Assembly: GCF_023920705.1 (NCBI RefSeq)
Contig: NZ_CP094657.1
Location: forward strand, 62,001-126,000
Reading direction: 5' to 3'
Origin: Acinetobacter sp. XS-4
GTDB lineage: Bacteria; Pseudomonadota; Gammaproteobacteria; Pseudomonadales; Moraxellaceae
Length of the DNA: 64,000 bases
The position numbers were made by a program, and so were the translations under genes. Shown in pieces: positions 26,339-28,816 of this stretch; the first letter of the stretch is position 1, and the number at the start of each line of letters is the position of its first letter. The notes under the pieces were generated by a model. The model was not told the DNA's origin. It worked only from the letters and a program-made list of their open reading frames with translations, and did not search any database.

Positions 26339-27559
26339 TTAAGCTCTTTTAAGTTCCCAATGCTGACTTGGGTCATCAGATCGATGACTGATATATACAT
26401 GCGTATCACCTAAGCATGTCAGTACTGCATCTGGTTTACCTTCTACAAAGATATAGCCATCTTCAAATGCCCACTTAGTTTGATACTGACGACCAGCGCC
26501 TTGTAAGAAAATATCACCACCATACACATTAACTGCTTGTAATTCTTTACCATTGGTACTGTTTAATGCTGTTTGGAGCTGCTCAAAAGACTCATTTGAC
26601 TTTAAGCCTGTCTGCAAAATCTTTTTGGCAGTATTTATATTTTTTTCATTGGTACTTAAATTGAGGGCTTTGCTAAGTTCGTGAATAATTTTTACTGCTT
26701 CTTTTTGAGGGTCTTCTACATTTTTAAACTCTGTCTGTACTTTATTTTGTAGTTTCTCAAGATTATCTTTTTTAAGATTTTCTAGAAGACGATTAATATT
26801 TTGATGTCTTAAATGCAACCTGAACTGTGAATATGAACTCCAATCTTTTTGATCCAAGATATCTAATTGAATAGAGACAAGAATGATCTTATAGAGTTGT
26901 TCATTGTGCTGAGTGAAAGGATTTGCGGACAAACCTTCAAGTTCAGGAATATTTAAACCTAGAAAAGGAGAGGAAGCATATTCGTGGAACTTCTGCTCAA
27001 TGCCACGAAGTGCATCATGAGCCAATGCATTGTTTAAATATTCATCTAACTTTTTATCATCAAGTTTACCAATCAGTTCCGATTTAATCGTTTCTTCGCC
27101 ATTAATATCAATAAATGTTTCTAATAAATGAACAGTATCCAGAAAATCACTGGTTCTTAAGTGAGCTAGGGTTTGTTCATCTTGTTTTGGTAAAAGCTCA
27201 AGAAAGTTTTCTAAGTCTTTATCTAATAATTTATAGGCAACTGGCTTTGCCTCAACAGAAGCGCCTAATACCCAACTAGAACGGATATCTTTAACTTTGT
27301 TGTATAGCATATTCACTCTGTAACCCCAACTGTCTGCGTGACTGTCAAAATACCAAAGCTCTTCTTCTATGTTTTTAACCTTGTCATGTACCGTAAATAG
27401 TCGGTCATTTGTATGAGAGTAAGCTAACTTACCCGTTTCACCACGTGCAGTTACTGCATCTTGTAAACTATGGGTTTGGCCACCGTATTGACTTGCGATA
27501 CATGCACCTGTCGCTTTGTTAACGATTCTAAAGTTTCCTTCTGGGAATCCGTTAGCCAT
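26339..27559 (-). CDS. Unrecognised 406-aa protein with lectin-like (beta-trefoil-like) ends
   Basis: No family recognised. Three parts are visible: a Gly/Trp/Tyr-rich N-terminal region (residues 1-110, beginning GFPEGNFRIVNKATGACIAS) and a helical, charged, Leu/Lys/Glu-rich middle (about 110-330). A second beta-rich segment closes the protein and ends in SQHWEL, with Gln399-x-Trp401. The FRIVN...TGxCI opening and the QxW ending resemble pieces of ricin-type beta-trefoil repeats, as if a trefoil were split by a helical insert; this is inference. There is no signal peptide or membrane segment, so it is either cytoplasmic or exported by another route. The start at 27559 is preceded by AAGGAGTGACTTATC. 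It converges with murI and lies next to an unusual AT-rich region. Confidence 0.7.
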   Translation of the reverse strand: MANGFPEGNFRIVNKATGACIASQYGGQTHSLQDAVTARGETGKLAYSHTNDRLFTVHDKVKNIEEELWYFDSHADSWGYRVNMLYNKVKDIRSSWVLGASVEAKPVAYKLLDKDLENFLELLPKQDEQTLAHLRTSDFLDTVHLLETFIDINGEETIKSELIGKLDDKKLDEYLNNALAHDALRGIEQKFHEYASSPFLGLNIPELEGLSANPFTQHNEQLYKIILVSIQLDILDQKDWSSYSQFRLHLRHQNINRLLENLKKDNLEKLQNKVQTEFKNVEDPQKEAVKIIHELSKALNLSTNEKNINTAKKILQTGLKSNESFEQLQTALNSTNGKELQAVNVYGGDIFLQGAGRQYQTKWAFEDGYIFVEGKPDAVLTCLGDTHVYISHRSDDPSQHWELKRA

Positions 27560-28016: not shown

Positions 28017-28045
28017 TTGACGTTCTTTATTATACCGATTATTAT
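28017..28045 (+). promoter_or_regulatory. Near-consensus sigma-70 promoter of the structured RNA
   Basis: TTGACG (28017-28022), 17 bp, then TATTAT (28040-28045). Expected transcription start is near 28052, exactly at the base of the first hairpin of the RNA element. Confidence 0.65.
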
Positions 28046-28051
28046 TTCGTT

Positions 28052-28283
28052 GCTGGCCTACATTGCCAGACGGTTTTGACAGACCGTAAGTCCCCATAGC
28101 GGATTATAGTTCTACTATAAGTCGTTAGACCCTTGCGTCCCCTTTCTTTGCGGTAGGACGGAAGGGGGACGCCCCGTGCGTGCTGGTCTCTATGGGCACC
28201 AGTCTGTCAACCCTCTTTCGTTCTGCCACCCTAATCAATTGACGGTGATTTGGTGGTAGGACTCCATTTTTAAGGAGTTGGCT
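28052..28283 (+). ncRNA. Candidate structured non-coding RNA with a regulated micro-ORF
   Basis: Paired elements in order are as follows. The 5' hairpin is CTGGC-ctacatt-GCCAG (28053-28069). A long closing stem TTGACAGAC/GTCTGTCAA (28076-28084 with 28202-28210) continues inward as CCCATAG/CTATGGG (28093-28099 with 28190-28196). It encloses hairpin A, TTATAGT-tct-ACTATAA (28104-28120), and hairpin B, AGACC/GGTCT then GCGTCCCC/GGGGACGC (28127-28189) with a 14-base loop. Downstream, CTGCCACC/GGTGGTAG with inner AATCA/TGATT forms a further stem (28223-28259). A final ACTCC/GGAGT stem (28261-28278) buries the ribosome-binding site of an 11-codon ORF. Such dense perfect pairing in an AT-rich background is unlikely by chance. 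I cannot assign a known family with confidence; a C4-like phage antisense RNA is one possibility. Confidence 0.65.
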
Positions 28284-28319
28284 ATGCCACTATTCAAACT
28301 CATTTTCTCTCTTATTTAA
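28284..28319 (+). CDS. 11-codon hydrophobic micro-ORF with a strong, sequestered ribosome-binding site
   Basis: Encodes MPLFKLIFSLI then TAA. AAGGAG lies six bases before the ATG, an ideal site. The GGAGT of that site can pair with ACTCC eight bases upstream, so translation would be blocked unless the hairpin opens. The peptide is hydrophobic with a single lysine, as in some membrane-active small toxins or in leader peptides. No known family is recognised. Confidence 0.4.
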   Translation: MPLFKLIFSLI

Positions 28320-28511
28320 CTATTTTATTTATTTAAAATTTGGGTTTTTGCAACCTTGTATTTTAAATTTATAATTTTTTTTATTTTAAAATCTTAATTA
28401 TTTTATTTTCCTGTATTTGTGGGAGGATTAATTATTATTTAAAAAATATTTTAATATTTAACGAATAATATTTTTATTTTATTTAAAGATATAAATAATC
28501 ATGAGAATAAT

Positions 28512-28796
28512 ATGAAATTTCATAAATTTATATTGTTTTTAAACCTTGTGGTCGGTGCTTACAGTATTACAAATGATGACGCCAATGCTCAGCAGGAATT
28601 TAAAAGAATTTGTTTGTCAGGTGAACACATGCAAGCCAGTTGCGATTGTATTTGCCAACAGCTTGAACAGGTTTATTCACCTCAAACCGTACAACGTTTA
28701 AAACACACCAGTTTGCAAAGTCCTGTTCTCCCACAGGACTTTGCCCCTAACTTGTTTAGCAGCATTCAACGCTGCAATAAAACTGAAATGGGCTAA
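28512..28796 (+). CDS. Small putative exported protein, 94 aa, four cysteines after the signal
   Basis: Begins with a signal-like sequence (KFHKFILFLNLVVGAYSI) ending near DANA, suggesting cleavage and export. The mature part is short, with Cys residues at CLSGEHMQASCDCIC and one more near the end (QRCNKTE), compatible with disulfides or metal binding. Codon composition is clearly more balanced than the AT-rich sequence before it, which supports a real gene. The ribosome-binding site is weak. I do not recognise the family. It lies between the structured RNA and the 3' side of glmS, on the opposite strand to glmS. Confidence 0.55.
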   Translation: MKFHKFILFLNLVVGAYSITNDDANAQQEFKRICLSGEHMQASCDCICQQLEQVYSPQTVQRLKHTSLQSPVLPQDFAPNLFSSIQRCNKTEMG

Positions 28797-28816
28797 GTTC
28801 GCTTAGCTCCTTTATC

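Follow-up and report, generated by a model that had tools for sequence, protein, structure and literature searches.

The C4 antisense RNAs of Acinetobacter are, judging from sequence, leaders of the genes that follow them, which we report here as new. The copy studied lies in a 64,000-nucleotide stretch of the chromosome of Acinetobacter sp. XS-4, hereafter called the window, across which C4 (RF01695) was the sole Rfam family above cut-off, with a score of 58.1 bits against a gathering threshold of 45. The matching segment, 28146-28233 on the plus strand, shows the hallmarks of C4, a long closing stem with inner hairpins plus the a' and b' segments, both when folded alone and in the consensus of its class of copies (class C), and we regard its C4 identity as secure. 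A preliminary description of this DNA had listed a C4-like antisense RNA among its candidates and named Rfam as a check, and the match bears this out. The same description had placed in the window a promoter, a GC-richer structured block with a first hairpin, a leader with a masked short ORF, the octamer GGTAGGAC (at both 28152 and 28255) and the motif CCTAC (at 28057), all of which were recovered at their coordinates; it had captured the element itself but missed the downstream gene, the genome-wide family and the conserved loop partner a1 (28093-28099).

The genome of the window contained 26 C4 matches above cut-off, compared with none in 14 control genomes. Six genomes, this one included, carried 20-26 matches each, and 18 of 20 further Acinetobacter species carried C4 (72 matches). 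Outside the genus there were at most four matches in any sampled genome, under stricter filters than those applied to the six close relatives.

Anatomy of the window element

The element forms a block (28052-28283) with a GC content of 52%, compared with 19% in the flanks, and the RNA from 28046 to 28319 has a predicted folding energy of -95.5 kcal/mol (z = -4.30), with none of 200 shuffled sequences as stable. All parts described here lie on the plus strand. A sigma-70-type promoter (28017-28045) consists of TTGACG as the -35 box (28017-28022), a 17-nt spacer and TATTAT as the -10 box (28040-28045). The corresponding pattern, TTGA[CT] followed after 16-18 nt by at least four of the six letters of TATAAT, occurred in 1.9% of shuffles and in every one of the 96 elements, among 126 collected, that had a recognisable 5' hairpin. 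The 5' hairpin GCTGGCCTACATTGCCAG (28052-28069) corresponds in sequence to the Region 1 stem-loop of the Group 1 sRNAs, the loop consensus being taken from the available part of PMC5320573. It is followed by b1 (28074-28085), which is complementary to b' of C4, by a1 (CCCATAG, 28093-28099), which is complementary to the a' loop, and by a segment (28135-28145) that is predicted to pair with the C4 5' arm in an alternative fold.

Within C4, the 5' arm (28152-28172) starts with GGT and is followed by the a' loop CTATGGG (28190-28196), by b' (AGTCTGTCAA, 28201-28210) and by the 3' arm (28220-28230), which may pair either with the 5' arm or with 28252-28262. The latter segment, GGTGGTAGGAC, is complementary to the 3' arm and is here called the arm mimic; it is preceded by a b2-like site, TTGACGG (28239-28245), which is a partial complement of b'. 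The ribosome site AAGGAG at 28272 is masked by a hairpin (28261-28278) between ACTCC (28261-28265) and GGAGT (28274-28278), and the leader ORF behind it (28284-28319) has 11 codons, MPLFKLIFSLI, and is C-rich and G-free after its start codon, making it a possible Rho-use site.

The feature is longer than first noted. In all 20 examined loci that resemble the window copy, homology reaches about 520-560 bp or more downstream and includes a 94-codon ORF, which belongs to the shared stretch. This gene (28512-28796) is predicted to encode a Cys-rich protein of 94 amino acids with a signal-like N-terminus, and both homology and coding constraint identify it as coding. Its pN/pS ratio was 0.36 in 13 of 15 copies, the other two falling outside the length filter (one of these is the G008 copy at murI-glmS, the inner part of which is missing), and one copy of the gene has lost its start. 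Four cysteines were invariant in an alignment of 12 sequences, and a lipobox-like cysteine was present in 10 of the 12 but not in the window protein. There were 79 homologues, and those shown with a name were from Acinetobacter, except for one labelled Klebsiella. A Pfam search with the protein gave no family above cut-off, the predicted model had a pLDDT of 68.6, and comparison with the PDB gave no match at E <= 0.001. A terminator-like hairpin overlaps the end of the gene (28790-28809; one found, 0.8 expected by chance). Between the leader ORF and the gene we found no intrinsic terminator-like site; a second promoter-like site in this interval (28347-28375) is present in 1 of the 15 copies. 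On the other side of the leader, a 406-aa ORF on the minus strand (26339-27559) lies between it and a murI-like gene.

Downstream genes and leader ORFs

In the six genomes, 124 of 132 C4 matches (three of which score below the gathering cut-off) precede a member of either a TetR subfamily or the Cys-protein family, and eight have neither. Counted from the genes, all 91 TetR matches with E < 1e-40 are preceded on their own strand by a C4 at a distance of 270-377 nt, as compared to 1 of 22 weaker matches, the one being a fragment of an interrupted strong member. Matches to the 94-aa protein have a C4 in 25 of 32 cases and lack it in seven, two of the 32 being halves of one gene. The 20 further species gave seven TetR matches with E < 1e-50, each with a C4 274-306 nt upstream, and three weaker ones, near 1e-21, without C4. 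We consider the linkage of C4 to these gene families secure.

The ORFs after the 26 copies in the window's own genome encode TetR regulators, small Cys-rich exported proteins and one exported protein of 465 amino acids, and three of the copies lie in the interior of a tandem array; most of the 26 appear to precede regulator genes that are apparently of a phase-switch family (see below). At 20 loci in other species, the genes after C4 were, in our reading of the translations, small Cys-rich lipoproteins (7), larger lipoproteins (4), phage-borne-looking genes (6) or unassigned (3). At L163, L165, L172 and L182, all from other Acinetobacter species, C4 is followed by genes whose lipoprotein-like products have about 370 residues, and on plasmids of A. 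johnsonii and A. soli (L080 4001-6469 and L081 4001-6674) a C4 match lies before a gene of 609 bp and one that encodes a CAP-domain protein.

The arrangement of the copies varies. At G000:C1:232520-233098 (L018, L007, L003, L001), three C4 units stand in direct tandem and are followed by a full leader and a TetR gene, and in G008 several C4 matches are clustered at 2707289-2707979. In L024, L026, L117 and L121, different sequence, similar among these copies, takes the place of the promoter, the 5' hairpin and the 5' end of C4; L121 has also lost the start codon of its downstream gene. We considered a phage or plasmid origin of near-identical copies and rejected both: in our judgement the contigs named 'Acinetobacter phage MD-2021a' are probably chromosome pieces, as are NZ_CP121565 and NZ_CP040085, where the neighbouring genes look chromosomal. 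Megabase 'plasmid' records that hold the same elements are probably bacterial chromosome sequence as well.

A rule-based search identified a leader ORF in 92 of 106 elements, and several of the other 14 are inner units of tandem arrays. By length the peptides fall into three classes (18, about 30 and 11 residues) with a common position and spacing, and the first two classes share a short motif. Constraint on the peptide residues was not significant, with pN/pS-like values of 0.76, 0.70 and 0.49 for the three classes and column shuffles at or below the observed value in 77, 74 and 24 of 200 cases, respectively, which speaks against the peptide as the selected product. ORFs of the 11-codon class are almost without G and contain 28% C; the window ORF has nine C and no G in 33 nt, a composition equalled by 38 of 127934 sequence windows.

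Copy-specific pairing and predicted folds

The match between the a' loop and a1 averaged 6.77 nt for the same copy and 3.54 nt for other copies, which was not reached in any of 2000 permutations. These figures come from 77 elements: of 106, 5 were unparsed for the loop, and the b1 pattern was absent in 24 of the remaining 101. Within genomes, the copy's own a1 was the strictly best partner of a' in 49 of the 77 elements and tied for best in 21. For class C, to which the window element belongs, the values were 7.08 and 4.23 nt (0 of 5000 permutations) in 13 of 15 copies, the two copies without a 5' part being left out of the statistics and of the class consensus. The letters of a' and a1 differ among class C copies and yet the match is kept, also across species at the murI-glmS locus; in G000, all 20 a' loops were distinct. 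Across the family, the match of b' to b1 exceeded all 2000 permutations, and none of 2000 equalled that of the C4 3' arm to the arm mimic.

The permutations for the sites downstream of C4 omitted 13 of the 126 elements, which lack a ribosome-site motif. The a' loop complements the ribosome site in the class with ORFs of 30 residues and in the loci from other species, 14 of 20 of which entered the test (0 of 2000 permutations each). In the 18-residue class 83 of 2000 permutations were as good, which we count as no match, and in class C the fit was no better than chance, with 1784 of 2000 as good. Nor did b' match the downstream part above chance in the 18-residue class (554 of 2000) or in class C (1647 of 2000). 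Direct pairing of C4 with the ribosome site was not found at the window locus, and because both a' and b' match the downstream part there at chance level only, direct C4 repression of the 11-codon ORF is unsupported. In the 18-residue class as well as in that of the window, the ribosome site lies inside the ACTCC/GGAGT hairpin.

Fold predictions point to two mutually exclusive structures. C4 alone folds at -41.1, and the predicted full-length fold (the anti-C4 fold) dismantles it: a'/b' are held by a1/b1, the 5' arm of C4 by the upstream segment and its 3' arm by the mimic. In single-sequence ensembles, the 5' arm preferred its upstream partner in 89 of 94 elements and the 3' arm its downstream partner in 88. 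The RNAalifold consensus of 13 class C RNAs disagreed with these predictions: it showed the ribosome-site hairpin together with the C4 fold instead of the anti-C4 fold. The underlying alignment was gapped in the a1 and a' parts, so that a1-a' pairing could not weigh in the consensus. The C4 fold of the consensus comprised 26 pairs with 100% of the cells paired, and only two pairs had compensatory changes. The predicted anti-C4 fold leaves GGAG of the ribosome site largely base-paired and so would not open the site by itself.

These results bear on two proposals of the preliminary description. Its mutually exclusive pairings survive in the predicted single-sequence folds, but the class C consensus shows the C4 fold, and the switching pair it named, CCTAC with GTAGG, is possible at the window and not kept in all copies, with L015, L016 and L019 having the loop CCACATT yet keeping GGTAGGAC in the C4 arm. 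Covariation across homologues, which it had named as a check, is seen between the loop and a1 of the same copy, and in the C4 stem it is confined to the two pairs above.

The order of parts in the Acinetobacter elements, b1-a1-C4-b2-arm mimic-ribosome site-ORF-gene, is like that of the c4-icd-ant module of phage P1, where X15639 inspected by eye gives b1-a1-C4-b2-a2/ribosome site-short ORF-regulated gene. Common to both are the C4 fold and the upstream a1/b1 segments complementary to a'/b'. An a2 at the ribosome site, as in P1, is present in the 30-residue class and in the loci from other species, whereas the window locus has an internal hairpin instead; at b2 it has TTGACGG, for which the class C match was at chance level as given above. 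The 11 codons of the window's leader ORF also differ from the P1 module, and the regulated gene is an antirepressor in P1 and the gene for a 94-aa exported protein without a Pfam family above cut-off in the window. In its anatomy the window element resembles the P1 design with the last gene exchanged. A c4-a1b1 motif, presumably equivalent to the upstream a1/b1 segment, is named beside C4 in a table in the available part of PMC2864571.

Proposed regulation of the downstream gene and a possible link to colony phase switching

We hold, with rather more conviction than doubt, that the fold of the C4 leader sets translation of the 11-codon ORF and hence readthrough into the 94-aa gene. Transcription from the sigma-70-type promoter would yield a leader RNA with C4 and the 11-codon ORF that runs on into the gene. 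In the anti-C4 fold, a1/b1 would sequester a'/b' while the two arms of C4 are taken by the upstream segment and the mimic; in the C4 fold, cleavage by RNase P might set C4 free, and the downstream part would close the ACTCC/GGAGT hairpin over the ribosome site. Rho binds C-rich, G-poor, unstructured RNA. With the leader ORF untranslated, its G-free, C-rich stretch could load Rho and transcription would end before the 94-aa gene, whereas with the ORF translated transcription would pass into it; we infer which fold would mean ON at the window locus. In P1, C4 reportedly acts on ant via icd translation and Rho, as Biere, Citron and Schuster are said to have described in 1992. A mechanism of translation and Rho is likely at the window locus too. 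Translational coupling or RNA stability might take the place of Rho-dependent termination, given that the role of Rho is read from sequence and that the predicted anti-C4 fold leaves the ribosome site unexposed, but the 192 nt between ORF and gene (28320-28511) make direct coupling unlikely and the composition of the ORF, rich in C and free of G, suits a Rho-use site; we think this variant rather improbable.

An action of C4 solely in trans, on unlinked mRNAs and with the downstream gene incidental, has been discussed by Weiss et al. 2016, and it would agree with the high expression and apparent processing reported for the family in the available part of PMC5320573 and with the differing a' loops of the copies. 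It is, however, difficult to reconcile with the linkage to two gene families, with the own-copy match of a' and a1 and, in the 30-residue class, with the match of a' to the linked ribosome site, and we consider it unlikely, even if C4 may still act on other copies. The type I toxin of the preliminary description, with the peptide as toxin and C4 as antitoxin RNA, would account for a short, mostly hydrophobic ORF whose strong ribosome site is masked, and the C4 3' arm does match the arm mimic of the leader in antisense, a' having no match at the ribosome site. Yet peptides of 11, 18 and about 30 residues share one place with no residue constraint detectable against the column-shuffle null, and a larger conserved gene follows 124 of the 132 C4 matches; such a system seems very improbable to us. 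Hardest to credit is the non-functional phage relic, also suggested at the outset. C4 is known from P1-like phages and some copies are damaged (the 5' part is replaced in L024 and L026), but there are 26 copies in the genome, the promoter pattern is present wherever the 5' hairpin is recognisable, loops covary with the partners of their own copy, the downstream gene is under constraint, and transcription of the family has been reported (PMC5320573, available part).

According to the available part of PMC5320573, 21 C4-type RNAs of A. baumannii AB5075 constitute the 'Group 1' sRNAs, which are transcribed, highly expressed and apparently processed at GGW; the GGT at 28152, the start of the octamer, fits these read starts. 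Group 1 sRNAs combine a Region 1 stem-loop with a CUACAUU or CACAUU loop and a C4 part, and the window element has both. One of them, ABUWs001 (art1), covers 92,978-93,245, that is 268 nt; the window segment 28052-28319, which begins with the first hairpin and ends at the stop codon of the leader ORF, has the same length. The window locus is situated at 90 kb of its chromosome, with a position and strand like those of ABUWs001, and from map position, strand and length we infer that the two may be the same locus. The available text of PMC5320573 treats Group 1 as sRNAs and mentions neither a leader ORF nor a linked gene, TetR or otherwise; ORFs were called there with a cut-off of 30 aa.

The available part of PMC9802203 describes 11 TetR-type regulators (TTTRs) and one pseudogene in AB5075, random activation of four of which switches the colonies. 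Introduced lacZ fusions of TTTR promoter regions reported the ON/OFF state in translucent variants, and autoregulation of the regulators was not found. The words 'antisense' and 'upstream' are absent from the main text of PMC9802203, and the window gene differs in not being a TetR gene. For the 12 listed TTTR genes, the mean distance to a Group 1 RNA is 11.3 kb and the largest 21.5 kb, closer than in any of 20000 random placements. These distances are about the error of interpolating the gene positions from locus numbers on a chromosome with an assumed length of 3.972 Mb, and they fit adjacency rather than show it. In this comparison of map positions, not sequences, the C4-linked TetR regulators appear to be the published TTTR phase-switch family. 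We found no published link between C4 RNAs and these regulators in the part of the literature surveyed. ABUW_1645 is reported in the available part of PMC12742793 to be toxic at high expression and to be greatly reduced in a relA mutant, which may hint at how the switch is set. We also considered SrvS as a sponge for C4, comparing a 150-nt piece of the p1AB5075 aadB leader (L162) with the 26 precursors of the window's own genome. The complementary runs were no better than in shuffles, 39 of 40 of which scored at least as high as observed, and a simple sponge role is disfavoured because complementarity to the leaders is not above chance.

As TTTR fusions report the state of the cell without autoregulation (PMC9802203, available part), a diffusible locus-specific factor is called for, and C4 with its copy-specific loops could be one. 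C4 might then be a copy-specific, self-propagating switch and thereby a self-sustaining RNA memory, a proposal that we regard as doubtful. Free C4 would bind a1/b1 of a new precursor and free the a'/b' of that precursor, which would be cut as new C4, so that OFF would propagate itself; ON, with precursors in the anti-C4 fold and no C4 made, would also be stable. The class C consensus, in showing the C4 fold, has slightly lowered our confidence both in this memory and in the leader mechanism at the window locus.

If the memory exists, the copy-specific loops would give each locus an address of its own, and about 20 paralogous regulators could hold independent, heritable and randomly flipping states, which could be the missing mechanism of the opacity switch of A. 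baumannii described in the available part of PMC9802203. C4 as a leader appears to join two separate published observations, the abundant C4-type sRNAs and the randomly activated TetR switch of colonies. The elements also show a phage immunity RNA serving as a leader on the chromosome, with its anatomy preserved and another gene in the place of the regulated one, and they suggest a testable RNA basis for colony phase switching.
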